Part shown: positions 1-30,067 of the stretch, piece after piece | Layout of the letters: each line of letters begins with the position of its first letter | Position numbering within the stretch: the first letter of the stretch is position 1 | Source: Planctomycetota bacterium | Lineage (GTDB): Bacteria; Planctomycetota; UBA1135 | Length of the DNA stretch: 39,085 bases | Reading direction: 5' to 3' | Assembly: GCA_021776795.1 (NCBI GenBank) | Contig: JAJFFC010000025.1 | Location: 1-39,085 of the forward strand | The notes under the pieces: generated by a model | Databases searched by the model: none | Told to the model about the DNA's origin: nothing | What the model saw: the letters and a program-made list of their open reading frames with translations, nothing else | Program-made: the position numbers and the translations under genes

Positions 1-1625
1 CGGAATTGAATATCAGCTTTCCCTGTTGCATCAAGAACTCCTCGCAGCCCTGCCTGACCCTGGGTTGCCCAAAGAACCGGACTCGGCAGAAGATGGGTAT
101 CCCAGGCTCCAAAATGAAGGCCCGATTCGTCTTCAGCAAAATCCGTTGATAGCAGGACTCGGAATGGACGGTTGGGGCCACTTGGAATATCTAAACCAAG
201 ACGAATTGTACTTCCAATGGAAGCTGATTCAGGGTGATGGAGTGTTTTAAATCCAACGATTGCAAGCCCGGGAACCGGTTCGCTAATCGAACTAATCCTT
301 GCGTACCATTCAGGGTATCCATCTCCATCAACATCACCAACATATTGATTAGAACTTGGTCTAGGGAATAGGCCCAGGGTGGAAGTCCAGGGATCAGTCC
401 TGCCCGCATCCCAGGAATAATCAGTCAATCTACTGCCGTTTTTCCCCGAAAATGCGACCAAGGAGTATCTCTCAGGGCCTATCGCTTGAAAAATGAAATC
501 CGTCCAGCCATCGTTGTCGATATCGACGAAAGAGCGAATTGGAAGACGCGCATCAATGCCCTGCGCCTGGTTTGGTACAAAGCGTGGATCTAGGCTGGCA
601 AAAGGAACCTCCCAAATGAGACTACCATTCCCACCGCTAATCAGCTGAATCTTCCCTTCTGTGGCATGATTGGCAGAGTGAGGCGCACCAAGAATGATGT
701 CGGTAATGCCATCATTGTCTAAATCCGAGGTGAGGGTTGCCGCTGCAGTAAAGATTGGAGTCGGTACGGAATCGAGGGGCCATGTCCGGGACCAAATTAC
801 GTTGCCGGTTCTCCCGTCTAAACAGCGGGCTCTCCAATCCCTGAGACCTGAGTTATTATCCACATAGACTATGAACACATCTTTAATGCCATCACCGTTG
901 ACATCCGCGCCCGGTTTAGTGACCCCAGAATTCATCGCGGGAATAATTTGCTGATACTGCGTTGGCGCGTAGTCAATCCACCGGAAGCGCATCGTAGAGG
1001 TATCGAAGAGTCCTGATATGAATGCATCGTGTAAAGCGGAATCCTGGTAAAAGGTGATCAAGATTTCTTCGTACCCATCTCCATCAAGATCTCCATATGG
1101 GATAGCTTCGCCAAATCCAGCGGCTGACGGGAGGCCGGGTGCAGCTTCTGGCATAAATGAGGCTCCGAGGGCTTCACCTGATGCGGCATCCCATATAACA
1201 ATGTACGGAACAACTCGAAAGGGTGGAAAGGGAAATGTATCGAATGCCATCGATATTTGGGCAACACCAATTTGGTTGCCCACCTGCAATAAAATCTGCG
1301 GCCTCAGATGTGTTTGCAAATTACTATTAGGACCTAGGTTAAATGCTGACATCTTTTGCCTAGTCCCAAGCTCGATTTGGGCCCCGCCAAGGAAAAAACT
1401 AAGCCCATTATCGGAGGTCCCAATCCAATCCACTGCGCCATCGAGGTTGGCGTCTGAAAGCCCCTGACCTGGCTTCATCTCCGGATGGCTGGCTGAGTCC
1501 AGCCAAAGAACATCGTGGAAAGCCATGGGATGGTCATCCGGTTTTTGAGCACCCTGCCCCCACGCTCCTGGTGCCGTCACGTATGTCCCGCAAAAGCAGG
1601 CAAATAGAAGGGTGAGATATCTCAT
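1..1625 (-). CDS. Exported FG-GAP/VCBS repeat protein, 3' end cut by window edge
   Basis: An open frame of 541 codons runs from ATG at 1625 leftward off the window without a stop, so the C-terminus is missing. The start encodes a signal peptide (MRYLTLLFACFCGTYV...). At least six calcium-binding DxDxDG-type loops follow, for example DLDGDGYEEI, DVNGDGIKDV, DLDNDGITDI, DIDNDGWTDF and DVDGDGYPEW. These are typical of integrin-like FG-GAP/VCBS beta-propellers, which bind ligands or surfaces outside the cytoplasm. The last visible part (IGSTIRLGLDIPSG... through GVLDATGKADIQF) resembles the beginning of the beta-rich C-terminal module seen complete in other genes of this window. A structural or adhesive surface role is inferred. 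The family call is secure, the function is not. Confidence 0.85.
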   Translation of the reverse strand, partial: MRYLTLLFACFCGTYVTAPGAWGQGAQKPDDHPMAFHDVLWLDSASHPEMKPGQGLSDANLDGAVDWIGTSDNGLSFFLGGAQIELGTRQKMSAFNLGPNSNLQTHLRPQILLQVGNQIGVAQISMAFDTFPFPPFRVVPYIVIWDAASGEALGASFMPEAAPGLPSAAGFGEAIPYGDLDGDGYEEILITFYQDSALHDAFISGLFDTSTMRFRWIDYAPTQYQQIIPAMNSGVTKPGADVNGDGIKDVFIVYVDNNSGLRDWRARCLDGRTGNVIWSRTWPLDSVPTPIFTAAATLTSDLDNDGITDIILGAPHSANHATEGKIQLISGGNGSLIWEVPFASLDPRFVPNQAQGIDARLPIRSFVDIDNDGWTDFIFQAIGPERYSLVAFSGKNGSRLTDYSWDAGRTDPWTSTLGLFPRPSSNQYVGDVDGDGYPEWYARISSISEPVPGLAIVGFKTLHHPESASIGSTIRLGLDIPSGPNRPFRVLLSTDFAEDESGLHFGAWDTHLLPSPVLWATQGQAGLRGVLDATGKADIQF

Positions 1626-1970
1626 TCGTTGATGGCTACCGTATCGAGGCTGAGTTGCAAAGGTGGGGTTGTTACCAGAATAGCTGCTCTAGCTTATCGG
1701 TTTTCAATAATGAGGTACCTGCCTTTTTGAGAATCAATCACGAATTTCCATGATCTACTTATGCAAGTACCCCTCTGCTTGCGTAGGTATTCTTGCTTGG
1801 TTCATCGCGAACAGGCCAATCCTTACTAGACACGAGGAATCTCAAAGAAAGATGAGTCTGCAAACTGGACTCGAACCGGCGACATGCGGCTAGGGAACCT
1901 GGCACCCTACCCACTGGGCAACGGCCGTATTTTCAGCGCGAGGCAAATCTTCGCAGCGGATCCGAGGTCC
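1626..1970. other. Intergenic gap, no gene; imperfect inverted repeat
   Basis: This A+T-richer stretch separates two minus-strand genes and holds no convincing reading frame. It contains an imperfect inverted repeat (GCAAGTACC at 1763-1771 against GGTATTCTTGC at 1786-1796) and the tRNA-like remnant described separately. No clear promoter for the gene starting at 1625 was recognised. Confidence 0.5.
1856..1928 (-). pseudogene. Degenerate tRNA-like sequence
   Basis: Read on the minus strand, this 73-nt stretch has tRNA spacing. A 4-bp D stem (GCCC/GGGT) encloses a classic D loop AGTGGGTA. Then come 17 nt in the place of an anticodon arm, a 5-nt variable loop ATGTC, and a T arm GCCGG-TTCGAGT-CCAGT with four of five pairs. 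The would-be anticodon stem (CCAGG/GCCGC) and acceptor stem (ACGGCCG/TTGCAGA) do not pair, so it cannot fold as a working tRNA. The variable loop and T arm resemble tRNA-Arg. It is best read as a decayed tRNA or a chance match. A tRNA remnant can mark an old integration site, but nothing else here shows that. Confidence 0.3.
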
Positions 1971-4571
1971 TTATTGCCCCACTACTGCGCGCAAGCCATG
2001 GCTCAGGGCCCAGCCTTGTGTTTGCCCGCTATCGCGGAAGGCGGCTTGCAGGTAGCGCTCTGCACCAATCAATGCCGGGTTATTCGGAATCGAAAGAGTG
2101 ACTGTGGCAACGCCATTGCCGTCGGCGGTCATCGACTTCTGCCACACGACTTGGTTGAGATCGATTAACAAATCTCCACCGAACATCGCCATGTCGTTGC
2201 CGGCTAAGGAAACGTTGAGGAATCCAGAGCCAAAGTCCGGCGCTCCCTCGACAGTCAGCATGACTTGCGAACCTAGCAAAGGCTGTGCGTTGGCTTCTAG
2301 AGTCAAGACGTTGGGGCCGTCACGTAGTTCGGCATAAGGGAAGAACCCAGGAGTTTCGGGAAGGTAGTCCCAAATGCCTCGGCCATAAGTGCCGAAGCGA
2401 ATCATGTTCGCGGAAGGTACGGCTTCGACCGACCAATAGCGAGTGATTGGAGCTTCAGCCCCCAAAATACTCGACCACTGCTGGGTGCTTGGCTCGTACT
2501 CCCAGGCACCAGAGTGTGCGGCGGCGTACATGCGTCCACTACCATCGGGAGCTTCGACCATGTCGTAGACCAAAGTGTTGGGCATGCCCGAACGACGATC
2601 TTGGAAGGATTGGCCGCCATTCGCAGAGAACATGACTGGGGCATTGCTGTAACCCGAACCGCCAATCCAAACCACGTCGGCCGTGGTCGAAGACGGCACG
2701 ATGGTGGTGCCGTAGAAGTAATGCGCGGAAGGACCAGTGGTTGCGGATTGCGTCCAGGTCACGCCGCGGTCAGTGCTCCAGTAAATCTTGCCGTCGGAAG
2801 TGGTGCACCAAGCGCGTTGCGGATCGACAGGAGAAAAGGCCAAAGCGGTCACCTCAGGCGTGAAGGTTTTCGAACCTAACTGGGTGTAGTTCCAGTTGTA
2901 TTGAATGCCTTGCCGCTCATAGCGCCAAATCTTCTTGCCGCATAGGTAGAAGACATCGGGGTCTTCGGGGTCGGCAACCATGAAAGGCAGCCACTGCCCG
3001 GCAAAGCCGGTGGGGAAATCTTCGAAGTACAAAGCAGGCCAACCTTCCCCAACGCAAATCAAGATGAAGCCCGGATAGTCGGAGTAGACAATATCTAAGG
3101 TTCCCGAAGTGGAGCTCAAGTGACCATAATCACCGGTGATGTCCTCGACGAAATTCTGCGAAGGGCCACCACCAGCGATGGGCCCACCAATCGCACGCTG
3201 AAAGCCTTGGTCCTGCGAACCCGCATAAACTTGAGAGGGATCACGACGACTGGTCAGCGTGCTGTAGTACTGACTCACGCCCAATCGCTCCGCACTCAAC
3301 CAGTTCATGGTCGCGGCCTGGTCCGTGCTTTCATAAACACCGCCATGGGTATTGATGAACCAACGTTCACCGGAGGCTACGGAAGCATCGGGAATGACAC
3401 TCATGCCCATGAGGTCGGCGTGCAGCTTGTTTTGACGATCGGCCGGATGCTCCCACCAATCGCTCACCTTGCTAAAGCTGCTGCCACCATTGCTGGAGAG
3501 ATACATTTCGACGCCACCATAGGCGAGGGTATCGGCATCGGTAATCGAAGTGGTGAATGCACTCCACATTTCATTCATGTCGGTCGGATGACTCCAGCTC
3601 GAGCCGGCATTGGTCGTGCGCCAAAGCTCCCAAGTTCCGCTTCGCTTCAAAGCGGCACTGAAGGTTTGGCCGCCGCTAATTTCATGACCACCGAAACGCA
3701 CGTCCTCGGCCGTGAATCCAACGCTGCTCCCCAGGCTGCTGAAGCTCTGCCCGCCATCGGTGGATTGGTATAGGCGATCGCCTTCGAATAAGTACACCGG
3801 GCCGAGGACATCACGTGGCGTGAACAAATCCGCCTGTTCACTGATGCCATAGCTCACCGAAAAGCTCTGGCCATCATCCACCGAACGGTAGATGGACCAT
3901 GTGCTTGCTTGGCGACCCAGAATCAGAACGGTGTTGTTGGCATCGTCCAAAACCAACATGCGCCGAATCTCGGTGAAGATTGGTACACCCGTGGGAGCTT
4001 GCCAAGTCAATCCTTGATCTGCGCTGCGCCAAAGCTGGTTGTTGTCAGCACGAAGAATGACATCTTGCGCACCACCACTCTGGGGAATCACGCCGAGATG
4101 ATACACGCCGCCATACACGCCATCGCCGATGGCGGTCCAGGCGCTGCCGTCGGCCGGGCCATGAAAGACACCGCCGAGGTCCGTGCCGACATAAAGCGAT
4201 TGGCCATCACTGCTCGGCACCGTGATGTGCACACTGCCTGCCAAGTTGCGGCTACCCAATTCTTGCCAAGAGCCGGCAGTGAGTTGTGTGCTAAAAATGG
4301 CCTGCTCGCGCGCGGCCATCAAATCACGACGGTTCTGCTCTTCCATTACGCGCCAATCCACTCCCGGTGCCGCACGGTGCATGGCTTCCATCCATTCTTC
4401 GCGCGCCTCTTGGTTTTCTTCGCCCTCGTCTTGCTCGGCGGCAACCTCGGTCGGCTGCGGCATGCCATTGAGGTATGGCTTGGCGAAGGGATGCCCGGCA
4501 TTGGATTCAGCAACGGAGCAGGCGGCGAGCAGCAACAGCAGACTCGCCCCAATCGGGGAGGTACGGAACAT
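1971..4571 (-). CDS. BNR/sortilin-type beta-propeller lipoprotein
   Basis: This 866-residue protein starts with a lipoprotein signal (lipobox LAAC, Cys18), so it should be anchored outside the cytoplasm. The body carries repeated BNR/Asp-box motifs (S-x-D-x-G-x-[TS]-[WF]), including RSADQGLTW, RSVDDGQSF, QSTDGGQSF, RTTNAGSSW, LSSNGGSSF, WSTDRGVTW and SANGGQSF. These mark one or two multi-bladed propellers of the sialidase/VPS10/YVTN kind. No sialidase active-site set was recognised, so binding or structure is more likely than catalysis. Residues about 760-866 form the beta-rich C-terminal module (SIPNNPALIGAERYLQ) shared with the peroxidases at 8.6-13.8 kb. It follows the glutathione peroxidase gene by 108 bp, so it may have its own promoter. 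Confidence 0.85.
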   Translation of the reverse strand: MFRTSPIGASLLLLLAACSVAESNAGHPFAKPYLNGMPQPTEVAAEQDEGEENQEAREEWMEAMHRAAPGVDWRVMEEQNRRDLMAAREQAIFSTQLTAGSWQELGSRNLAGSVHITVPSSDGQSLYVGTDLGGVFHGPADGSAWTAIGDGVYGGVYHLGVIPQSGGAQDVILRADNNQLWRSADQGLTWQAPTGVPIFTEIRRMLVLDDANNTVLILGRQASTWSIYRSVDDGQSFSVSYGISEQADLFTPRDVLGPVYLFEGDRLYQSTDGGQSFSSLGSSVGFTAEDVRFGGHEISGGQTFSAALKRSGTWELWRTTNAGSSWSHPTDMNEMWSAFTTSITDADTLAYGGVEMYLSSNGGSSFSKVSDWWEHPADRQNKLHADLMGMSVIPDASVASGERWFINTHGGVYESTDQAATMNWLSAERLGVSQYYSTLTSRRDPSQVYAGSQDQGFQRAIGGPIAGGGPSQNFVEDITGDYGHLSSTSGTLDIVYSDYPGFILICVGEGWPALYFEDFPTGFAGQWLPFMVADPEDPDVFYLCGKKIWRYERQGIQYNWNYTQLGSKTFTPEVTALAFSPVDPQRAWCTTSDGKIYWSTDRGVTWTQSATTGPSAHYFYGTTIVPSSTTADVVWIGGSGYSNAPVMFSANGGQSFQDRRSGMPNTLVYDMVEAPDGSGRMYAAAHSGAWEYEPSTQQWSSILGAEAPITRYWSVEAVPSANMIRFGTYGRGIWDYLPETPGFFPYAELRDGPNVLTLEANAQPLLGSQVMLTVEGAPDFGSGFLNVSLAGNDMAMFGGDLLIDLNQVVWQKSMTADGNGVATVTLSIPNNPALIGAERYLQAAFRDSGQTQGWALSHGLRAVVGQ

Positions 4572-4679
4572 GGCGATGTGGACGGGAGGCGGCCAGAGGC
4601 AGCCTTAGGGATTCCCAGGGTCCCCCAAGATTAACCCAAAGCCGCTCGTGGCAACCACATTTTCCGCTCTTTCCGCGGC

Positions 4680-5240
4680 CTAAGACTGCGGCAAAGCGGC
4701 TTCCACCGCGGCGACGAACTCAGGGTCACTTGGGTCCACGCGGGTGCCGAAAAACTGCACTTGCTCGCCATCCGGAGCAATGAGGTATTTGGCGAAGTTC
4801 CACGCCGGTAGTTCTTTGGTCTTGCCGCCCAACCAGCGGTAAACCGGGGACTGGCCCTCACCCTCTTGCACCTCGACCTTGGCCATCAGTGGGAAGGTCA
4901 CCTGATAGTTGTCGCTGCAGAAGGCGCGGATTTCGTCGGCAGAGCCGGGCTCTTGGCCGAGGAACTGATTACAGGGGAAGGCCAGAATCACCAAGCCCTG
5001 GTCGGCATAGCGTTCGTACATTTTCTGCAGGCCTTCGTACTGCGGGGTGTAACCACACTTGCTGGCCACGTTGACCACCAGCACCGCCTTGCCACGATAA
5101 TCTTCCAGCGCTTTGGCCTCGCCCTCTAAGGTGCTGGCCTCAAGGGCGAAGAAATCGGTGCGCGGGGTCTCGGCCGTGACGGTTTGGCTGCAAGACAACG
5201 CGAGGGTGGCACTCGTAAACAGGAACAGGAAGGATTTCAT
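4680..5240 (-). CDS. gpx: Glutathione peroxidase family protein (thiol peroxidase), exported
   Basis: This 186-residue protein is predicted to reduce hydrogen peroxide or lipid hydroperoxides. The catalytic tetrad of the family is visible: peroxidatic Cys62 in NVASKCGYTP, Gln92 in FPCNQF, and Trp147-Asn148 in AWNF. Cys108 (RAFCSD) sits where the resolving Cys lies in thioredoxin-dependent, BtuE-like enzymes, so thioredoxin rather than glutathione is the likely reductant. It uses Cys, not selenocysteine. The N-terminus (MKSFLFLFTSATLALSC) is a signal peptide with a possible but weak lipobox ending at Cys17, placing the enzyme outside the cytoplasm. Its ATG overlaps the recQ stop in an ATGA, which implies translational coupling. 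Confidence 0.92.
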   Translation of the reverse strand: MKSFLFLFTSATLALSCSQTVTAETPRTDFFALEASTLEGEAKALEDYRGKAVLVVNVASKCGYTPQYEGLQKMYERYADQGLVILAFPCNQFLGQEPGSADEIRAFCSDNYQVTFPLMAKVEVQEGEGQSPVYRWLGGKTKELPAWNFAKYLIAPDGEQVQFFGTRVDPSDPEFVAAVEAALPQS

Positions 5241-8223: not shown

Positions 8224-8586
8224 ATGTTGATTATCATGATTGCCTTTACCGCCTCCGGCCTTCTTGCCGCAGGCCTCGCGATTCCTCTGCTCCGTGGCAA
8301 AGTGCCGCCGAATCGTTTCTACGGTTTTCGCACGCCTGCCACGCTGAGAGATGAAGAGCTGTGGTACGCCGCCAACCAAGCCAGCGCTCGGCATTTGTTG
8401 GTGTGGGGCATCTGTTGCACCGTGATTGCCTTAGGCGCTTTTTTTCTGCCGAACATCAGCGAGGACGTCTATTTTGCGCTCAATCTTGGTGCCGTAGTTG
8501 GCGGAGGGCTGGTGGTCATTCTGTGGAGCTTTTGGGATCTGCGCAGAATTCAACAGGAGCAAGGCCAAAAGGGGCCAAAGCGCTAG
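8224..8586 (+). CDS. SdpI/YhfL-family small membrane protein
   Basis: This 120-residue protein has three predicted membrane segments (about residues 1-20, 55-76 and 80-100). Its central signature, NRFYGFRTPATLRDEELWYAAN followed by SARHLLVWG, matches the SdpI family, named for the Bacillus immunity protein against the SDP toxin. Most members have no proven role. The frame is open upstream, but ATG at 8224 is preferred because the signature then has the normal distance from the N-terminus and the upstream codons overlap the divergent DUF1801 gene. It precedes the peroxidase cluster on the same strand by 32 bp. Confidence 0.75.
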   Translation: MLIIMIAFTASGLLAAGLAIPLLRGKVPPNRFYGFRTPATLRDEELWYAANQASARHLLVWGICCTVIALGAFFLPNISEDVYFALNLGAVVGGGLVVILWSFWDLRRIQQEQGQKGPKR

Positions 8587-8618
8587 CGGTTCATGAGGTA
8601 GTCTTTTTCGAGGTCCAC

Positions 8619-10307
8619 ATGCGCGGCAACATCCCCTCTGGCAGCTGGTACCCCACATGGTTTATCGCCGTGCTGGGTATGTGCATGCTTGCCGCCAGCC
8701 CGACCACGGCGCAAAGCCTTGGACATGGACCTTTGCCGCCTCCCTCTGCCCCACCAGAGAACCCGCTCACTCCAGAGAAAGCTATTCTCGGCAAGGCGCT
8801 GTTTTGGGACGAACAACTCTCCAGCGACAACACCGTGGCCTGCGGCACTTGCCATCGCCCGCAATCCAGCTTTAGCGATCCGCGCGAGGCGCGCCACCCG
8901 GGCCCAGACTTGTTGCTGCATACGCCCGATGACCTGTTCACCTCGCCAGGCATCATCCGTTCCGACGCCAACCATCTTTACCAACCCGATGCCGTGTTTG
9001 GCCTCGAGGTGCAAAAGACTCGCCGCCGCGCACCCGACATCTTCGGCGCCATGTATGCCCCGGAAGCTTTCTGGGATGGCCGCGCCACTTCGGAGTTCCG
9101 CGATCCCAAAACTGGCGCAGTAGTCATACCTATAGGCGGCGCCCTAGAAAGCCAAGTCGTCGGCCCGCCGCTGAGTACCGCGGAAATGGCGCATGAAGCC
9201 CGCGATTGGGATGACATCACCGCCAAGCTGGTGACGGCCAAACCGCTGGCCTTAGCAAGTAACCTCACCCCCGATTTGCAGGCTACGCTGCAGACCCACC
9301 CGGATTACCCAGCGTTATTCCAACAAGCGTTTGGCACACCAGATATCACCGCAGTGCGCGTGGCCTTTGCGATTGCGAGTTACGAACGCACGTTAATCCC
9401 GGAACGCACGCCATACTTCCGTTGGCTGGCTGGGCAAACGCAAGCCATGACCCCAGACCAAATCGAAGGGCACGACCAGTTCTTCAATCTCGCCAACTGC
9501 GCGACTTGCCATCAACCGCCGGTGTTTACGGTGCATGAGTACTCCAACATTGGCTTACGCCCATGGCAAGATGACCCCGGTCGCATGGACATTACCGGAC
9601 TGAACAGTGACCGCGGGAAGTTCAAGATTCCTTCGCTGTTGAATGCCGGCCTACGCCCGCGCTTTTTCCATACCGGCGAAGAGAACACGCTATGGCCGGG
9701 TGGCGTCGGTCAGGTCTACATGGATGGTGGCGGGCCAAATTTCGACAACCGCGATCCGCTGCTGTTGGATTTAAACCAAGTGCCCGGCGTCGACATGGCC
9801 AAGATTATGGACTTTGTCGGCAATGCCCTCACGGATCCGCGCGTGCGCGATGGCCTTCCTCCTTTTGACCGGCCGACCTTACGCTCGGAGCGACTCGAGC
9901 AAGCCGGTGGCAACCTTTATGGCTTCGGCACCCCAGCGCTCGCAGGGGCCGACGCACCGCGTATTTTGGCTGCCGAACCGGCCTTCCCCGGCGCACACTT
10001 GTTCCGCATCGGCATCGTTGGCGGCGCCGCCGGTACGCAGGCACGCCTGCTCCTCGGGGCAACCCGCTTGTCCGGCCAAGTCCATCGCGGCGTGGCCATG
10101 TTCGTCCGCCCCTACCCGCAAAAGATTGTTTCCACCACCCTGGAAGACGATGGCCAAGGCGGCGGTTATGGCACGGTTTTTTTACCAATCCCGAACCACC
10201 CCAACCTGATCGGGACTCAAGTGTTTGCCCAATGGTATGTAGATGATCTCACGGCAGTTCACGGAGCAGTGACCTCCGAGGGCGCCGTGCTGCGCATCGA
10301 GGGCTGA
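8619..10307 (+). CDS. Exported di-haem cytochrome c peroxidase/MauG-family protein, copy 1
   Basis: This 562-residue protein has a signal peptide (residues 1-32, TWFIAVLGMCMLAASPTTAQ) and two c-type haem sites, CGTCH at 75-79 and CATCH at 294-298. This is the layout of bacterial di-haem peroxidases and MauG, which reduce peroxide or oxidise protein targets in the periplasm. Family landmarks include TPEKAILGKALFWDEQLSSD, FWDGRA, GGALESQVVGPPLS, YERTLIP and DRGKFKIPSLLNAGLRPRFFH. Residues about 455-562 are an added beta-rich module (PIPNHPNLIGTQVFAQW), making the protein longer than simple peroxidases. ATG at 8619 is chosen because it begins the signal peptide. It is followed 70 bp later by a close paralogue. 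The electron donor and substrate are unknown. Confidence 0.9.
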   Translation: MRGNIPSGSWYPTWFIAVLGMCMLAASPTTAQSLGHGPLPPPSAPPENPLTPEKAILGKALFWDEQLSSDNTVACGTCHRPQSSFSDPREARHPGPDLLLHTPDDLFTSPGIIRSDANHLYQPDAVFGLEVQKTRRRAPDIFGAMYAPEAFWDGRATSEFRDPKTGAVVIPIGGALESQVVGPPLSTAEMAHEARDWDDITAKLVTAKPLALASNLTPDLQATLQTHPDYPALFQQAFGTPDITAVRVAFAIASYERTLIPERTPYFRWLAGQTQAMTPDQIEGHDQFFNLANCATCHQPPVFTVHEYSNIGLRPWQDDPGRMDITGLNSDRGKFKIPSLLNAGLRPRFFHTGEENTLWPGGVGQVYMDGGGPNFDNRDPLLLDLNQVPGVDMAKIMDFVGNALTDPRVRDGLPPFDRPTLRSERLEQAGGNLYGFGTPALAGADAPRILAAEPAFPGAHLFRIGIVGGAAGTQARLLLGATRLSGQVHRGVAMFVRPYPQKIVSTTLEDDGQGGGYGTVFLPIPNHPNLIGTQVFAQWYVDDLTAVHGAVTSEGAVLRIEG

Positions 10308-10377
10308 GATTCCTCACGGAATTGTAAGGAACCACAGCCGCGAAACGGTGTTCTGCAAAAGTCCCCAGTCCTTTCGC

Positions 10378-12051
10378 ATGAACATTTCCAGAACCCTTCT
10401 TCTTCTCAGTGTGGCTGCTCTGACCACGCTATGTAGCGCCTCGACCCTCGCCGCACAGGGAGGCGGCCTCCTGCCTCCGCCCGAGCCCTTGGCCAACCCG
10501 ACCACGCCGGAGAAAACCGTCCTCGGCAAAATGCTGTTCTGGGAGGAGCAGCTTTCGAGCGATGACACGGTGGCATGCGGCACCTGCCATCGCCCTGCCA
10601 ATGGCTTCAGCGATCCGCGCATGGCAACGCACCCAGGCCCCGACGGCGTCTTCGCCACCCCTGATGACCGCTTTGCCTCGCCCGGCGTTCTTTCGTCCGC
10701 TCCCGATGGCAGCTACCAGGAAGATGCCAACTTTGGCTTTGCCCCGCAGGTCACCGACCGCCGCACGCCTGGCATCACCGCAGCGCTGTATGCCCGGGAG
10801 GCCTTCTGGGATGGCCGCGCCACGAATACCTTCACCAATCCGGAAACGGGTTTGGTCAGTATTTTCACTGGCGGTGCCCTGGAAAGCCAAGTCGTTGGCC
10901 CGCCCTTGAGTGACGTAGAAATGGCGCATCAAGGGCGCGATTGGAATGCGGTGACGACCAAGTTAGCTGCAGTCGAGCCGATGGTTTTGGCCACCGACCT
11001 CACCCCGGACATGGTCGCGGCACTTGCCGTCGATAGCACCTACCCGGAACTGTTCGAAAACGCCTTTGGCTCGACCGATATCACGGCTGAGCGCATTGCC
11101 TTTGCGATTGCCGCTTATGAGCGCACCTTGATTGCCGATGACACCCCTTGGGATCGCTACATCGCGGGCGACCTCAACGCCATGACGCCGCAACAAATCA
11201 ATGGCTGGAACCAATTCAATGGCGTCGGCCGCTGCAACCTATGCCATACCCCGCCGGTGTTCAGTGACAATCAGTTCCACAATCTAGGTTTGCGCCCCAC
11301 CACCGAAGACAACGGCCGCCAAGGCGTCACCGGTCTTTTCGCAGATCGCGGCAAGTTCAAAACGCCGTCGCTGCGCAACGTTGGTTTGCGCAATCGTTTC
11401 TTCCACAACGGTGAGCGCAACTCGCTCGACAACGGCCCCGCTCCGGGTGGCGTCGATGAGATTTATGTCAACGGTGGCGGCCCCTTCCCCGACAACCGTG
11501 ATCCACTGCTCCTGCCGTTAGGCGGCGTTCCTGGAGTGAGCATTCCTGACATTTTCAACTTTGTCGCGAACGGCCTCACCGACCCGCGCGTCGCCGCCGA
11601 GCTTCCCCCGTTCGACCGCCCGACTTTGTGGAGCGAGAGCAACCCAAGTAGCGCGACCTTGTTTGGCATCGGAACCGCGACTTCGAACGGCCTAGTCCCG
11701 GTTGCGATTACCCACACCCCCGCCACCGTGGGCAGCAGCTCCTTCAAGGTGGGCGTGATGGACGGCCCAAGTTCAGCCACCTTTGGCTATCTCGCGGTCG
11801 CCCAAACCCGCGGCAGCGGCCAAGTGCTGCGCGGAATTGCCATTCAGGTGGCCCTTCCAGCAGCCGCTCTCCGCACCTTCCCCATGCAGCTAGGCACGGA
11901 TGGGCGTACCTATGGCACCGCTCAGTTCCAGCTCCCGGCGATTCCTGCCCTGTCCGGTTCTGAGCTGGTGGTGCAGATTATTTTGCCCGATACCGCCTCT
12001 GCAGGCGGTTTTGGAGGCGCCACCCGTGGTTTGAGCTATCAAATACCCTAG
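10378..12051 (+). CDS. Exported di-haem cytochrome c peroxidase/MauG-family protein, copy 2
   Basis: This 557-residue paralogue of its neighbours has a signal peptide (residues 1-26) and haem sites CGTCH (67-71) and CNLCH (286-290). It shares long identical stretches with copy 1 (SSD-TVACGTCHRP, FWDGRAT, GGALESQVVGPPLS) and with copy 3 (LNAMTP-Q-NGWNQFNG). The C-terminal 105 residues are the beta-rich module (VGSSSFKVGVMDGP through the end), here with LPAIPALSGSELVVQI in place of IPNxPxLIG. ATG at 10378 is chosen; an in-frame GTG at 10348 would add ten residues before the signal peptide. No terminator was seen between the peroxidase genes, so co-transcription is likely. Confidence 0.9.
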   Translation: MNISRTLLLLSVAALTTLCSASTLAAQGGGLLPPPEPLANPTTPEKTVLGKMLFWEEQLSSDDTVACGTCHRPANGFSDPRMATHPGPDGVFATPDDRFASPGVLSSAPDGSYQEDANFGFAPQVTDRRTPGITAALYAREAFWDGRATNTFTNPETGLVSIFTGGALESQVVGPPLSDVEMAHQGRDWNAVTTKLAAVEPMVLATDLTPDMVAALAVDSTYPELFENAFGSTDITAERIAFAIAAYERTLIADDTPWDRYIAGDLNAMTPQQINGWNQFNGVGRCNLCHTPPVFSDNQFHNLGLRPTTEDNGRQGVTGLFADRGKFKTPSLRNVGLRNRFFHNGERNSLDNGPAPGGVDEIYVNGGGPFPDNRDPLLLPLGGVPGVSIPDIFNFVANGLTDPRVAAELPPFDRPTLWSESNPSSATLFGIGTATSNGLVPVAITHTPATVGSSSFKVGVMDGPSSATFGYLAVAQTRGSGQVLRGIAIQVALPAAALRTFPMQLGTDGRTYGTAQFQLPAIPALSGSELVVQIILPDTASAGGFGGATRGLSYQIP

Positions 12052-12145
12052 ATAGGTCCATAAAGACGGGAACGAAACGGTTCTTGGGGTAGTCTAAGGG
12101 GTAGAAAGTCCCATTCGGCTACCCTACTCGTTTGGACCCTCGCTT

Positions 12146-13795
12146 ATGCGCCGCCCCCTCCTCTGCTTCGCTCTGGCCCTAGCCGCCACACTGCTGTCCG
12201 CGCCAGCTCAGGCTCAGTACACCAGCCTGATGCCACCGCCCGAGCCGCCCGAGAACCTGACCACACCTGAGAAGGTGGTTCTCGGCAAGATTCTGTTCTA
12301 TGAAGAGCAACTCGCTTCCGACAACACCGTCGCTTGCGGCACCTGCCACATCCCCGGCCGCAGCTTCACCGATGATCGCCCCGCACAGGACATCGGCAAA
12401 GATGGCATTCCGGACACGCTCGATGATGTCTTTGGCTCTTTGGGCATCAGCAATTTTGACGGCAATGAAGACTTCGACCCCGTCGATGATTTCATTCTGA
12501 AGCCGCAGATTACGCACCGCCGCACCAACGACATCTTTGGTGCGCTCTACGCCGATCGTATTTTCTGGGATGGCCGCGCCGGCGATGAATTTATTGACCC
12601 GGAAACCGGTCTAGTCAGCATTCCTGTTGGTGGCGCCTTGGAGACACAAGCGCTTGCCCCACTGCTCTCGATTGTCGAACAGGGACACCGCTTCCGCACT
12701 TGGGATAGCATCCGCACCAAACTGCAAAACGCGGAGCCGCTGCGGCTCGCGAGCGACCTCACGCCAGACATTGTCGCAGCCTTGGCCATTGACCCAACCT
12801 ATCCCGATCTGTTTGAAAACGCCTTCGGCACCACCGACATCAATGCCGAGCGCATTGCTTATTCGTTGGCCGCCTATCAGCGTACTTTGGTCCCTGACCA
12901 AACGCCGTGGGATGATTACATCAATGGCAATTTAAATGCGATGACGCCGGAGCAAGTCAATGGCTGGAACCAGTTCAATGGCATCGCCAACTGCTTTAAG
13001 TGCCACACGCCACCGTTGTTTTCAGACAACGACTTCCACAACAACGGCTTCCGCCCGTGGACGATCGACTCCGGACTGATGGAGACCACCGGTCTGAACT
13101 CAGACCGCGGCAAATGGAAGACCCCATCCCTGCGCAACGCTGGCTTGCGGAAACGTTTCTTCCACAACGGTGCTTTTGAGAATATGTTCCCCGCCGGTGT
13201 GAGCAATATTTACTGGGGTGGTGGCGGCACCTTCGATGACAATCTCGACCCGCTCCTCGTACCGTTGAGCAATATTCCGGGCATCAACCGTGAGCACATC
13301 TTTGAGTTTGTCGAGAATGCTCTCACTGACCAGCGTGTGAAGAATGAACTTCCGCCCTTCGACCGTCCAACCTTGTTGTTCGAGGAGCGCCCTTTCGGCC
13401 ACAATCTTTACGGGCAACCAACGGTTGGCCAGCAAGGCATGACTCCGCTGATGGCAGCGCAGGCTCCGGCCATGGTGGGCACCACCCAGGAACTCAAGAT
13501 TGGTGTGGCTCGCGTCCCTGCAGGTTCAACCGTACATCTCTTTGGCAGTACCATTCGCGGCTTCGGCCAGATGCGCGGCGGAGCTGCCATGTACGTGAAG
13601 TTCCCGCTAATCATTCACGAGATTGCGACTGCGGGTGGTGTCGGTATGCGTGGCTTCGCTACGGTCAAGCTGGACATCCCGAACAACCTCAACTTGATTG
13701 GGCGCAAGCTTTATCTGCAGTGGGTTGTCGAAGATGCTGGTGCTCCAACTGGAACCTCGGCCACGCGCGGCGCGGAAATCGAAATTCTCCAGTAG
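12146..13795 (+). CDS. Exported di-haem cytochrome c peroxidase/MauG-family protein, copy 3
   Basis: This is the third tandem copy, 549 residues, with a signal peptide (1-23, ending APAQAQ) and haem sites CGTCH (64-68) and CFKCH (283-287). It keeps TPEKVVLGKILFYEEQLASD, FWDGRAGDEF and DRGKWKTPSLRNAGLRKRFFH. It is the most divergent at the motif that reads ESQVVGPPLS in the others (ETQALAPLLS here). The C-terminal module is present (DIPNNLNLIGRKLYLQW). A 94-bp gap precedes it. Its TAG stop is followed at once by a GTG that may start the acetyltransferase gene. Differences in the second haem motif and the central loop suggest that the three copies have diverged in redox partner or substrate. 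Confidence 0.9.
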   Translation: MRRPLLCFALALAATLLSAPAQAQYTSLMPPPEPPENLTTPEKVVLGKILFYEEQLASDNTVACGTCHIPGRSFTDDRPAQDIGKDGIPDTLDDVFGSLGISNFDGNEDFDPVDDFILKPQITHRRTNDIFGALYADRIFWDGRAGDEFIDPETGLVSIPVGGALETQALAPLLSIVEQGHRFRTWDSIRTKLQNAEPLRLASDLTPDIVAALAIDPTYPDLFENAFGTTDINAERIAYSLAAYQRTLVPDQTPWDDYINGNLNAMTPEQVNGWNQFNGIANCFKCHTPPLFSDNDFHNNGFRPWTIDSGLMETTGLNSDRGKWKTPSLRNAGLRKRFFHNGAFENMFPAGVSNIYWGGGGTFDDNLDPLLVPLSNIPGINREHIFEFVENALTDQRVKNELPPFDRPTLLFEERPFGHNLYGQPTVGQQGMTPLMAAQAPAMVGTTQELKIGVARVPAGSTVHLFGSTIRGFGQMRGGAAMYVKFPLIIHEIATAGGVGMRGFATVKLDIPNNLNLIGRKLYLQWVVEDAGAPTGTSATRGAEIEILQ

Positions 13796-15059: not shown

Positions 15060-16850
15060 ATGTCCCCCCGCTCGAAGGTTCTCACCCTTGCCTTCCTGAC
15101 CCTAAGCGGCTCTACCCTACCCATTACCGCCCAAGAGCCGGCGCCTGAGTCTGTCGACACCCTCATGCAGCGCGACCAAGCCGTCGCACCCGAGGTTGCT
15201 GACAATATGCAGCGCATTGATCCAGGTTTTGATGGCTGGCGTAGTGAAGTGTTGCATGATGCCGCCAAGCAAGGCTTCAAAGCCTTTTTTGCCTGGGCGG
15301 TGTACCAAGAGGAGTTTCCGGCTGATTCGATTGCCGCAGATTTTTCATGCCCGCCGCTGCGCCCTCAAAACCTCAGTCTGTTGTACGAAGATGGGCAGTT
15401 GAGCATTCGTCATGCTGAGCATCCGCATGGGCATCCACTCAACTTGAGTGAACAGGAAAACATGGTGTCCGGACTGCGTTCGGTATTGGCCGAACCAGTC
15501 GCGAGCAACACCTTCTTCAAGATCACCACGGTCCGCGTTGGCGAGAACCAGCAATTCGAAACCGACTTCATCTTTCATGGCGCGTCGGGCATGCGCTTTC
15601 CGGTGCAAGTCAATGTAGAGGGAACCGCAACTTGGCACATTGGCGCGACCGATGACGAGGTGAAGCTAGCGCAAATTCATCTCCATCAATACGAAGAGAT
15701 TTTGGCGACGCGCACCACCTTCGCCGACGTCTCCACCGGAGTGTTCCAAGGAGACAAGTTGTGGAATCTCCTAATGCTGCATGACACGCAGGACTTCACC
15801 AAACGCACCGACCGTGTCATCGGCCAGAGTTATATCGGCAGCCAGGGCGTTGCCGTGGGCGACATTGACAACGATGGCCTCGATGATGTCTTTGTGCCCA
15901 TGCCCGGTGGCTCACCAAATCGTCTCTACCGACATTTGGCGGATGGCACCGCGGAAGAGATTTCTGCGCATGCGCAGGTGGACTGGGTAGACAACACCCG
16001 TGCCGCATTATTCATCGATGTTGACAACGATGGCGATCAAGATTTAGTGATTAGCGTAGGCGCCAATCTCGTGATTGGCTACAACGACGGCAGCGGCGTG
16101 TTCTCCGAGCGCGTGCCACTTCGCAAGTTGGATGAGCCACATATTTATTCCCTGAGCGCTGCGGACTACGACCAGGATGGCGACTTGGACCTATATGCCT
16201 GTCGCTATGTCTCTGGTGGTTTGATTGGTGGCGCACCTGCCCCTTATCACGACGCCAACAATGGCGCCGACAACTTCCTGTGGCGCAATGAAGGCAATCG
16301 CGAATGGAAGGATGTCACTGCCGAGGTTGGATTGGACAAGGGCAACTCCAAGTTTAGTTTGGCCAGTGTTTGGGCTGACTTTGATCAAGACGGAGACTTA
16401 GACCTTTACGTCGCGAATGACTTTGGCCGCAATAATCTGTACATCAATGACGGCAAAGGTCATTTCCATGATGAAGCCGTGGAGCGCGGAGCAGATGACA
16501 TCGGTGCGGCCATGGGCGCCAGCGTTGCCGACGTCGACGGCGATGGCGACCAAGACATTTTGGTGACCAATATGTTCAGTTCAGCAGGCAGGCGTATCGC
16601 CACGCAAACGAATCGTTTCATGGAAGGGCGCGCGCAGGAAGTTCATCAAGATTACATCCGCCATGCCCGAGGCAACACCCTGCTGATCAATCAGGGCAAC
16701 GGACACTTCACTGATGCCACCGAGGAAGCCGGCATTGCCGTCGGCGGATGGGCTTGGGGCGCGCGCTTTGTCGACATCAACAACAATGGGCGGCCTGATA
16801 TTTATTCCCCCAACGGTTTCCTCACCAACCGCAAGACGAAGGACTTGTGA
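15060..16850 (+). CDS. FG-GAP/CRTAC1-type exported protein, 5' part ending at an in-frame TGA
   Basis: These 596 codons encode a signal peptide (1-24), an N-terminal domain with FSCPPLRPQNL near residue 96, and six FG-GAP calcium loops: DIDNDGLDD (about 268), DVDNDGDQD, DYDQDGDLD, DFDQDGDLD, DVDGDGDQD and DINNNGRPD. The frame then meets TGA at 16848 after KTKDL. The next codons in the same frame (SFFWRR) run without interruption into a seventh FG-GAP loop, an ASPIC/UnbV domain and a thioredoxin-like domain, which is the normal continuation of this protein type. The two parts therefore look like one gene of about 1036 codons with an internal TGA. It is read through, or recently inactivated, or a sequencing error. 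Confidence 0.85.
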   Translation: MSPRSKVLTLAFLTLSGSTLPITAQEPAPESVDTLMQRDQAVAPEVADNMQRIDPGFDGWRSEVLHDAAKQGFKAFFAWAVYQEEFPADSIAADFSCPPLRPQNLSLLYEDGQLSIRHAEHPHGHPLNLSEQENMVSGLRSVLAEPVASNTFFKITTVRVGENQQFETDFIFHGASGMRFPVQVNVEGTATWHIGATDDEVKLAQIHLHQYEEILATRTTFADVSTGVFQGDKLWNLLMLHDTQDFTKRTDRVIGQSYIGSQGVAVGDIDNDGLDDVFVPMPGGSPNRLYRHLADGTAEEISAHAQVDWVDNTRAALFIDVDNDGDQDLVISVGANLVIGYNDGSGVFSERVPLRKLDEPHIYSLSAADYDQDGDLDLYACRYVSGGLIGGAPAPYHDANNGADNFLWRNEGNREWKDVTAEVGLDKGNSKFSLASVWADFDQDGDLDLYVANDFGRNNLYINDGKGHFHDEAVERGADDIGAAMGASVADVDGDGDQDILVTNMFSSAGRRIATQTNRFMEGRAQEVHQDYIRHARGNTLLINQGNGHFTDATEEAGIAVGGWAWGARFVDINNNGRPDIYSPNGFLTNRKTKDL

Positions 16851-16878
16851 AGCTTTTTCTGGCGGCGCGTGACGTCGC
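16848..16878 (+). other. In-frame TGA followed by a GC hairpin (possible recoding site)
   Basis: The TGA at 16848-16850 is in the same frame as both flanking coding parts, so no frameshift is involved. Eleven bases downstream a 6-bp stem, GCGGCG (16862-16867) with CGTCGC (16873-16878, one G-T pair), encloses the loop CGTGA. A stem-loop at this distance with a G among the first loop bases is compatible with a loose bacterial SECIS layout, but GC-rich DNA gives such hairpins often by chance. No other SECIS hallmark could be verified. Confidence 0.4.
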
Positions 16879-18170
16879 AATCTCCAGCTACCGAAAGCGA
16901 AACCCCAACTCAAGCCTATACCGATGCATGGTCTTCCCTGGCCACCATGGTTGCCGACCAAGGCTTGTCCTGGTCCGGGCGCGAACGCAACCGCATGTTT
17001 CTGAGCTTAGCAAGCGGTCGCTTCGTCGATGTCTCCTACGCAACCGGCCTAGATTTCGTGCAAGATGCTCGCTCGGTGGCTTCCATGGATTGGGATGGCG
17101 ACGGCCGCATCGATCTAGTGCTGAAGAACCGCAACGCGCCGCGCCTACGGTTGTTGCGCAACCAAGCCACCACTGACAACGCGCATTGGTTGCAAGTGAA
17201 CTTGCGCGGCAATGGCCTAGTCAATCGTGATGCCATCGGCAGTACAGTCACGCTGCATGCGGGCGACCAAGTGTTCCAACAGGTCCTGCTCGCTGGCGAT
17301 GGCTTCCTCTGCCAATCCTCGAAGACCCTGTTTTTTGGCCTCGGCGAGAACACTTCCATCGACAAACTAAGCGTGCGCTGGCCAAATGGTCAGGTCGAGA
17401 TTTTCCTCAAGGACGGCGAAACCCTAGATGCCAATCAACGCCTGCGCCTAGAGCCCTTGCAGCCTATCGAAGTCCTCCCAGCGCCCGCTCCTGTGGCTTT
17501 GCAGGCGGCACCAAATGAGGCGTCCAGCACGGGCGACGTCGACCGATTGCCGCTCCTCACCAAAATTTCTTTGGCTGAGCTTCCGCTTCCGTCCTTCGAC
17601 AACCCTAATCGCAAGGTCAAGGACCTTGCCGGAAAGCCACTGCTGGTGAACTTTTGGTCGACCACCTGTGCTGCCTGCCTTGAAGAGTTTGGCGATTTCC
17701 ACGAGAACCGTCGCAAACTGCGCAAGCAAGGCTTGCAGATTGTTCCCATGGTGACCGACGGCATGGAGCGTCACGAACGCGCCCGCGCCATTCTCAAAGG
17801 AGTCGGCCTTGCCCAAGGTGCCGGCTGGGCCGACCAGCGAGTGGAAGCCAGCTTGCGCATTTTGACCGAAGAAGTCTTGTACCGCGCCGTGGACATGCCG
17901 CTGCCAGTCAGTTTGCTGATTGACCGTCAAGGTCAGTTGGTACAGATCCACATCGGCCGCTACCCGATTGGTGCCCTCATGCGCGATCTCAAAATCTTGC
18001 GCGAGATGGAGGTGCGCTCACCCGAAGCTTCCGCGATGGCCTTCGGGCGTCGCCTTGCCTTCCGCGACCGTAACTATGCCGAGATGGCGGCCAAGTTCCG
18101 CGATGCCGGCATGACCGAAATGGCGGAGTATTTCCAGAGCTTAGTCGGCCGCTACGCCCCAGAGCGCTAG
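16869..18170 (+). CDS. ASPIC/UnbV plus thioredoxin-like domain, 3' part of the interrupted FG-GAP gene
   Basis: The only independent start near the TGA is GTG at 16869, and no Shine-Dalgarno sequence precedes it. The 433 residues contain one more FG-GAP loop (DWDGDGRIDLVLKN, about 73), then ASPIC/UnbV (LQVNLRGNGLVNRDAIGSTV ... FFGLGENTSIDKLSVRWPNG). A TlpA/thioredoxin-like domain follows with a CxxC active site (LVNFWSTTCAACLEEF) and a cis-Pro loop in MPLPVSLLIDRQG. A helical tail ends the protein. Both domains normally work outside the cytoplasm, yet this part alone has no signal peptide. That argues it is made by readthrough or not at all. Its long uninterrupted frame suggests selection has acted on it recently. 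It overlaps the convergent lipoprotein gene by 4 bp. Confidence 0.75.
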   Translation: MTSQSPATESETPTQAYTDAWSSLATMVADQGLSWSGRERNRMFLSLASGRFVDVSYATGLDFVQDARSVASMDWDGDGRIDLVLKNRNAPRLRLLRNQATTDNAHWLQVNLRGNGLVNRDAIGSTVTLHAGDQVFQQVLLAGDGFLCQSSKTLFFGLGENTSIDKLSVRWPNGQVEIFLKDGETLDANQRLRLEPLQPIEVLPAPAPVALQAAPNEASSTGDVDRLPLLTKISLAELPLPSFDNPNRKVKDLAGKPLLVNFWSTTCAACLEEFGDFHENRRKLRKQGLQIVPMVTDGMERHERARAILKGVGLAQGAGWADQRVEASLRILTEEVLYRAVDMPLPVSLLIDRQGQLVQIHIGRYPIGALMRDLKILREMEVRSPEASAMAFGRRLAFRDRNYAEMAAKFRDAGMTEMAEYFQSLVGRYAPER

Positions 18171-28988: not shown

Positions 28989-29502
28989 GCCGAGCAGAGC
29001 GCGCCCATGGAAGCGTCGCCTGATGTGGACTGGGGTCCTCATCGTGACCCTTGGCTTGGTTGGCCTCGGTGTGTTTTCTGGTTTGGCCATGCAGTGGACC
29101 GAAATCCAAACCGCGGATTTGGCCGTGGCGACTGCCACCTTCCAGGCGCAGCGCGAAACCCTCGGCAGCGCACCGCCCTATCTAGACCGCGATGACCAAG
29201 GCCGCGACTTCCTGCACCATGAGCTGGAGCAGGCTGAACAGCAGGACCTCAGCACGCTCCACGCCATGGTGTGGATTGCGCCACAGGAGAAGCTGGTGCA
29301 CGTCACCATGCCGATGTGGTTCGTCCGCGCCAAAGACTTTGGCGGCAATGGGCTCACTTTGTTCCTGGCGACGGCCGATCGCGATTTGGGCGACCTCGAC
29401 CTAGAACTCGATGTTGCCGCGCTAGAACGCCGCGGCCCGGGTCTTTTGCTCGACCGAAATCTGCCAAATGGCACCATTTTCCTGGTCTGGAGCGAAGACT
29501 AG
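28972..29502 (+). CDS. Single-pass membrane protein of unknown function
   Basis: This 176-residue protein has a basic N-terminus, one membrane helix (about 22-42, LMWTGVLIVTLGLVGLGVFS) and an outer soluble domain of about 130 residues. The domain contains LHAMVWIAPQEKLVHVTMPM and ends LPNGTIFLVWSED. The helix is an uncleaved anchor rather than a signal peptide. ATG at 28972 overlaps the preceding GNAT gene by 17 bp, implying a two-gene unit. I do not recognise the family. Confidence 0.7.
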   Translation: MSTASEPSRARPWKRRLMWTGVLIVTLGLVGLGVFSGLAMQWTEIQTADLAVATATFQAQRETLGSAPPYLDRDDQGRDFLHHELEQAEQQDLSTLHAMVWIAPQEKLVHVTMPMWFVRAKDFGGNGLTLFLATADRDLGDLDLELDVAALERRGPGLLLDRNLPNGTIFLVWSED

Positions 29503-29623
29503 GCCGGAATTCGTAGATTTCGACCGTGAAACCGCGGATTACGGTTATTCTGCTGTTCCGTCGGATTGTCGTTCCCCCCTAGAGGGCGGCTTTCCGTACT
29601 TAGACTCAAGAAGAATTAGACAA

Positions 29624-30067
29624 GTGACCATTAACATCTACGTCGGTAATCTGTCCTACAACACGGACGACCGCGAACTCGAAGACATGTTCTCCCCATT
29701 CGGAGACATTACTAGCGCACGGGTCATCACTGACCGCGAAACTGGCCGTTCCAAAGGCTTCGGTTTCGTCGAAATGCCCGATAAGGAGCAGGGCGAAGCA
29801 GCAATCGCTGCATTGAACGGTACCGATGTCGGTGGCCGTGAGCTCCGCATCAACGAAGCACGCCCACGTGAGGAACGTCCTCGCAGTGGTGGTGGCGGCG
29901 GCGGCTACGGCGGCGGCGGCGGTGGCGGTGGCTATCGCGGCGGCGGTGGTGGTGGCGGCTCCCGCGGTGGCGGTGGTGGTTACGGCGGCGGCGGCGGCGG
30001 TGGAAACCGTGGCGGCGGCGGCGGTGGCGGCTACGGCGGCGGCGGTGGCGGCGGCGACCGCTGGTAA
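29624..30067 (+). CDS. RRM RNA-binding protein with glycine-rich tail
   Basis: This 147-residue protein begins with one RNA-recognition motif (residues 3-80): RNP2 is IYVGNLSY and RNP1 is KGFGFVEM, with ITDRETGRS between them. From about residue 85 it is almost pure Gly with interspersed Arg, Tyr, Ser and Asn (GGGGYGGG units), a flexible low-complexity tail. The layout matches cyanobacterial Rbp proteins and plant glycine-rich RNA-binding proteins, often cold-responsive RNA chaperones. The start is GTG at 29624, since MTINIYVGN is the usual RRM beginning and the upstream frame is unconserved. The tail DNA is a GGC/GGT repeat that may be unstable in length. A strong terminator follows. Confidence 0.9.
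   Translation: MTINIYVGNLSYNTDDRELEDMFSPFGDITSARVITDRETGRSKGFGFVEMPDKEQGEAAIAALNGTDVGGRELRINEARPREERPRSGGGGGGYGGGGGGGGYRGGGGGGGSRGGGGGYGGGGGGGNRGGGGGGGYGGGGGGGDRW

Follow-up and report, generated by a model that had tools for sequence, protein, structure and literature searches.

How should a lone in-frame TGA be read when it interrupts an otherwise intact gene of more than a thousand codons, and what would the product do if that codon were translated? The question is posed by a gene in a stretch of 39,085 nucleotides, hereafter the window, which forms contig C18 in a draft genome of 3.26 Mb from a Planctomycetota bacterium (G000; 31 contigs, 89% complete). As the earlier note had described, one long frame runs through the locus (Table 1) and is broken by a single TGA, codon 597, with no further stops. 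From comparisons of the sequence with its relatives, we consider it very probable that this is a single selenoprotein gene whose TGA is predicted to be decoded as selenocysteine (Sec) with the aid of a downstream hairpin, and whose product is likely to be an exported enzyme.

Table 1. Features of the recoded gene (window coordinates)
Feature	Position	Strand	Details
Whole recoded gene	15060..18170	+	Begins with ATG at 15060, stop codon 18168-18170; 1036 residues (~110 kDa) when the TGA is read as Sec (U597)
Likely signal peptide, MSPRSKVLTLAFLTLSGSTLPITAQ	15060..15134	+	Read from the sequence by eye
Part before the TGA, FG-GAP propeller, 596 residues	15060..16847	+	Pfam FG-GAP; the relatives' equivalents stand alone in databases
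In-frame TGA for a predicted selenocysteine, residue 597, which opens the predicted helix 597-607	16848..16850	+	
FFWR motif 3' of the TGA (D-L-U-S-F-F-W-R-R-V)	16854..16865	+	Aligned contexts are D-x-U-S-x-x-W-R, x variable
SECIS-like hairpin, GCGGCG-CGTGA-CGTCGC	16862..16878	+	Stem arms 16862-16867 and 16873-16878, loop 16868-16872
ORF after the TGA if annotated alone, 433 aa, GTG start	16869..18170	+	From the ORF list; used for the 30 best database matches
ASPIC/UnbV domain, residues 725-795	17232..17444	+	Pfam PF07593, 62.5 bits
TlpA/ResA-like thioredoxin domain, residues 845-962	17592..17945	+	Pfam AhpC-TSA; PDB 1jfu (TlpA), 3.1e-09; Foldseek to ResA/TlpA
CAAC (CxxC) pair of the thioredoxin domain, residues 870-873	17667..17678	+	

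The FG-GAP repeats, the ASPIC/UnbV domain and the AhpC-TSA domain all score above the Pfam cut-offs, so that the FG-GAP, ASPIC/UnbV and CxxC thioredoxin-like content first recognized from the letters alone is borne out. Elsewhere in the window, three genes for di-haem cytochrome c peroxidase/MauG proteins lie in a row upstream on the same strand (8361-13795), a glutathione-peroxidase-like protein (GSHPx) with an ordinary Cys is encoded at 4680-5240, adjoining a RecQ-type helicase gene, and 29468-30067, judged from its translation, likely encodes an RRM-like RNA-binding protein that has a long tail rich in glycine (GGGYGGGGG).

The TGA is conserved well beyond this genome. In 24 of the 26 genomes of the window's own family (f1, the window's genome included), the best match spans the site with a single TGA, while the other families of the same order have both TGA forms and sense forms. 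An earlier expectation that relatives carry an ordinary residue at this position thus holds for other branches and fails for family f1, where the close relatives keep the TGA. A first census of the alignment column found TGA in 72, a sense codon in 16 and TAA or TAG in none of the 88 rows covering the site (39 of the 127 aligned stretches lay outside it and were left uncounted). With 60 stretches added, and again with site-covering rows only, the 149 homologs comprised 99 with TGA, none with TAA or TAG, one with TGC and 49 with other sense codons; these stretches were picked from the top of match lists, with and without TGA, and the proportions are therefore not those of a random sample. Among 30 loci fetched from across the phylum as the best matches to one query, a fragment of database protein P0072, the site is TGA in 29, among them all 21 from outside the window's order (the other nine are partly the same genes as among the 149 homologs). 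A fresh nonsense mutation or a sequencing error, which had been put forward as the sober alternative, is rejected by this conservation: given TGA in 99 of 149 homologs and in 21 of 21 loci outside the order, it is excluded for practical purposes.

Where a sense codon stands at the site it mostly encodes Glu, and otherwise Gln, Ala, Asp, Asn or His. Cys is rare, found in one of the 50 sense loci (L178, TGC) and in two of 82 sense database proteins (P0042 and P0072); the downstream CxxC is kept in P0072 and absent from P0042 and L178. A site dominated by Glu in the non-Sec homologs is unusual for a selenoprotein. The serine codon directly after the TGA is AGY in 72 of 72 TGA rows, as against 37% of the surrounding serine codons, a preference that is not specific to TGA because AGY also fills this position in 14 of the 16 sense homologs. 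Scanning the window's genome with the motif TGAAGYNNNTWYTGGCG returned four matches, all in genes of this kind (the window gene, one on contig C13 and two in tandem on C12); as the reversed control of the same scan gave two matches in that genome, the result is supportive only. Two homologs have an extra stop away from the site (a TAG in L051, contig G001:C60; a TAA in L062, contig G003:C10), and these are perhaps decaying copies or errors.

An AF2 model built from 65 aligned sequences, with Cys in place of Sec, has a pLDDT of 91.8 and a pTM of 0.92, with low confidence at residues 1-4 and 16-29 of the N-terminus, and places residue 597 as the first of its helix. The start of a helix is a common place for a reactive Cys or Sec. 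Foldseek matched the model to murine CRTAC1 (9etn, 1.3e-24; TM 0.72 by target and 0.40 by query), and the modelled fold is CRTAC1-like plus ResA/TlpA-like. We propose that SelB and tRNA-Sec would decode the UGA at the hairpin and insert Sec at codon 597, and that the full-length product would then be exported. Sec597, at the helix start in the propeller, could attack an oxidized substrate (a peroxide, a disulfide or an oxidized residue), and the CxxC domain of the same chain would resolve and re-reduce it. That Sec597 is recycled in such a redox relay by its own CxxC domain seems to us rather probable.

The distribution of the CxxC pair among homologs bears on this proposal. A C-terminal TlpA-like CxxC occurs in 90 of the 99 TGA genes, and in 74 of the 74 that are readable to the stop; it occurs in none of the 50 sense loci, 48 of which are readable to the stop. 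All nine TGA genes without CxxC run off the end of the fetched stretch. Among them is one real exception, a group of three loci from one genus (L070-L072), which carry TGA and reach the motif but show a degenerate WDSSDPAA or similar sequence. Among the 82 sense database proteins, CxxC is present in four, with Cys (P0072), Ser (P0104 and P0113) or Gly (P0078) at the site. The last of these, with Gly at the site and an intact CxxC, may be a mis-translated TGA gene, Gly being the reading of TGA under translation table 25. Three sense paralogs on contig C2 of the window's genome have 213-218 residues past the site, too few for a thioredoxin domain. A sense codon at the site usually goes with absence of the CxxC or of the whole domain, a pattern consistent with the redox function having been lost as one unit.

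In a quick tree built from 177 rows (without a mixture model, and with warnings on two long branches), the TGA and CxxC traits need five changes each, and the supported independent contrasts number four, of which three agree, none oppose and one is neutral (sign test p 0.25). With so few evolutionary events, coupling of Sec to CxxC is not proven beyond ancestry; judged from these sequences, the association is striking in its counts and rests on few events. This speaks for a reading in which Sec is inserted but is not redox-coupled to the CxxC, serving instead as a metal-binding or structural residue of the propeller, with the CxxC linked to it by ancestry alone. The degenerate motifs of L070-L072 and the four sense proteins that keep CxxC favour such a reading, as does the statement, in the review PMC13188914, that some Sec residues may be metal-binding ligands. 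Against it stand the complete co-occurrence among readable TGA genes, which come from several distant subfamilies, its absence from all sense loci and the three truncated paralogs on C2, and we regard uncoupled Sec as unlikely. We favour, on balance, a phylum-wide expanded superfamily of exported two-site selenoenzymes, in which the Sec of the propeller would perform the chemistry and a CxxC domain some 270 residues further on would recycle it.

Several of these genes occur close together. Contig C12 of the window's genome (L095, 62000-68500) has two tandem paralogs just before a FabH-like frame (by eye), each with one TGA in D-[LV]-U-S-x-FWR plus a CxxC; their subfamily is more distant, and its hairpins lie in other registers. 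Four further genomes (G292, G263, G372 and G422) have several TGA-bearing matches, among those listed, close together on single contigs, and G292 has eight such listed matches, four of them on contig C204. This clustering suggests tandem arrays.

The hairpin that follows the TGA is as first described, starting 11 nt past the codon with a 6-bp stem and a 5-base loop, and the distance from TGA to loop is 17 nt. Taken by itself it is not unusual (fold z -0.87, with 36 of 200 shuffles folding equally well), and its significance therefore comes from the family. The codon-shuffle z averaged -1.42 in 71 TGA genes and +0.04 in 16 sense homologs; elsewhere, at offsets taken in 15-nt steps between -300 and +300 apart from -30 and -15 (windows that span the TGA), the mean lay between -0.52 and +0.45. 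The bacterial SECIS (bSECIS) model as given in PMC13188914 specifies a loop of 3-9 nt, a stem of at least 4, a G in loop positions 1-2, a spacing of 16-37 and an energy of -7.5 or lower. After one of the 99 TGA rows was dropped (N or short), 93 of 98 TGA genes agreed with this model and five failed it, compared with 374 of 1960 (19%) synonymous codon shuffles; the sense homologs agreed in 12 of 50 cases, compared with 291 of 1000 of their shuffles. The window gene is among the 93, and a hairpin distance compatible with a bacterial SECIS, suggested at the outset, is in line with this result.

The same stem register pairs at a minimum of five of six positions in 56 of the 71 TGA genes, and the other 15 do not fit that register; by eye, they have hairpins in other registers. 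In two of the stem pairs both partners vary (A-U/G-U/C-G/G-C and G-C/A-U). In a formal covariation test of 47 distinct rows, 99.6% of cells were paired and 33 cells were changed on both sides, values of which neither was reached by any of 500 shuffles, while slid versions of the stem were 15-79% paired. These rows had been preselected for at least five of six pairs, and since they were thus chosen for pairing, the unselected tests (the codon-shuffle z and the bSECIS model) weigh more. A search of Rfam at 16700-17000 gave no match up to E 5.

Selection on the part behind the TGA was assessed by the Nei-Gojobori method in nine pairs of relatives. The dN/dS before and after the TGA was 0.055/0.076 (L013/L014), 0.038/0.078 (L011/L016), 0.087/0.085 (L061/L037), 0.104/0.110 (L199/L200), 0.085/0.179 (L080/L082) and 0.49/0.41 (L024/L031). 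Synonymous change was saturated in the remaining three of the nine, on both sides in L021/L023 and before the TGA in L010/L012 and L011/L012, which gave 0.24 and 0.11, respectively, after it. Values well below 1 on both sides wherever they could be computed argue that the second half is translated.

Databases present the relatives differently. Among 120 listed database homologs of the whole protein, 37 end in ..DL at the site, and the 30 best database matches to the ORF after the TGA are 401-435 residues long and start after the site, the top two being 88% and 78% identical to it. Such second halves are entered as separate 'ASPIC/UnbV' or 'peroxiredoxin' proteins, and the contig of a second half is sometimes as long as that of the matching first half (288,821 bases for both P0009 and P0132). 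The separate entries, together with the insignificance of the window's own hairpin, would be expected if the TGA were a true stop, whether it arose by a recent nonsense mutation, reflects an assembly error or divides two proteins by design, so that the downstream half is a separate protein or is never made. Such a stop is very improbable, considering that TGA outnumbers TAA and TAG by 99 to 0 at this column, that purifying selection continues past it and that sense homologs lack the hairpin signal. Nor was a start signal of the second half's own seen: no Shine-Dalgarno-like sequence was found by eye ahead of the GTG at 16869, the first listed start of the downstream piece, in agreement with the earlier note, and a separately started second half is rejected on this ground. 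Read as a selenoprotein gene, the family instead explains a recurrent annotation error, by which the two halves of relatives have been entered as separate proteins.

A search for selA, selB and selC in the genome, which had been named as a check, found all three and selD as well, each above its family cut-off. In G000, selA lies at C4:420884-422245 (440 bits), selB at C26:40823-41896 (273 bits), the tRNA-Sec gene selC at C4:427350-427442 (71 bits, anticodon tca) and selD at C4:426233-427159 (288 bits), the last with an in-frame TGA of its own (SGUAAKL). Recoding by another route, either reassignment of TGA to Trp or Gly (codes 4 and 25) or hairpin-stimulated readthrough by a near-cognate tRNA, finds a point in its favour in the Gly of the database protein P0078, which is what code 25 would give; with a sole TGA in the window frame, the full Sec machinery in the genome and a hairpin that fits the SECIS model, we give it hardly any credence, and a change of the genetic code is rejected on the first two of these grounds.

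Across a sample of 343 genomes of the phylum, a selA match (E 0.001 or better) was present in 59 of the 63 with a TGA-bearing match among those listed, compared with 185 of the 280 others (Fisher p 2.4e-6, kinship ignored). In two of the 59 (G212 and G414) the selA matches are only partial, and the four exceptions without one are draft genomes of 67-84% completeness. The position of the TGA was confirmed against the site in the 30 loci fetched from across the phylum. One genome, G438, is a single contig at 100% completeness and has both selA and a listed TGA-bearing match. Inside the class the co-occurrence offers little contrast, because 145 of the 154 genomes have a selA match; the nine without one are 56-90% complete. 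Sense forms are present in selA-carrying genomes too, so having selA does not impose a TGA at the site. In one genome (G019; L026 on contig C131) a selA fragment (3-374), a selenoprotein gene of this family (371-3466) and a SelD-like frame with SGUAAKL (3516-4949) follow one another on the same strand, almost without gaps. No gene of the propeller-thioredoxin family was found near selA in nine other stretches, from the same or other genomes, so this arrangement was seen in G019 only.

Recoding itself would work by a known mechanism, and the novelty lies in the protein family. The earlier note had expected recoding to be new for this family, and what we could consult agrees. The 2026 inventory of 119 prokaryotic selenoprotein families (Table 1 of PMC13188914) lists no FG-GAP, ASPIC or CRTAC1 family, and 'planctomycet' does not occur in the paper. 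NCBIfam has no model for the family, and its three TlpA/ResA/DsbE matches all fall below the cut-offs. In PMC9312934 and PMC5029168, searched by term, Planctomycet, UnbV, VCBS, FG-GAP and ASPIC are all absent, and the open-licence literature on selenoproteins and Planctomycetota, in so far as its text was at hand, names no selenoprotein of the FG-GAP/ASPIC/UnbV/VCBS/CRTAC1 kind. The main text of PMC4807772, on the selenoproteins of two planctomycetes, contains neither ASPIC nor FG-GAP. The family may have gone unseen because the site is Glu, not Cys, in its non-Sec relatives, a combination that searches for Sec/Cys pairs miss. According to the part of PMC12013277 that was available, the method used there may miss selenoproteins without Cys homologs, a caveat that fits the propeller-thioredoxin family.

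If the proposed reading is correct, a large selenoprotein family would be added, on a domain architecture absent from the 2026 inventory. It would also suggest that searches for Sec/Cys pairs can miss whole selenoprotein families, and the association of TGA with CxxC hints at a role for many FG-GAP/ASPIC proteins.

Compared with known systems, the gene resembles bacterial selenoproteins in its conserved in-frame TGA, the distance from TGA to hairpin loop, the presence of selA, selB, selC and selD and a redox-type CxxC in the chain. It differs from the listed ones in the predicted position of Sec in a propeller and in a site that is mostly Glu, and rarely Cys, in non-Sec homologs. With CRTAC1 and the FG-GAP-ASPIC(UnbV) proteins it shares the predicted fold (9etn) and the Pfam domains, an FG-GAP propeller plus ASPIC/UnbV, and is set apart from them by the added thioredoxin domain and the TGA codon. 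The C-terminal thioredoxin fold with its CxxC is like that of the TlpA/ResA thiol-disulfide oxidoreductases, whereas here the domain is fused behind a propeller and its CxxC is found almost exclusively in the TGA members of the family. Finally, it would be a redox selenoprotein with a thioredoxin-like fold in its chain, like the Sec-containing UxxC oxidoreductases of that fold; unlike in those families, the predicted Sec lies outside the thioredoxin fold, 273 residues upstream of an intact CxxC.
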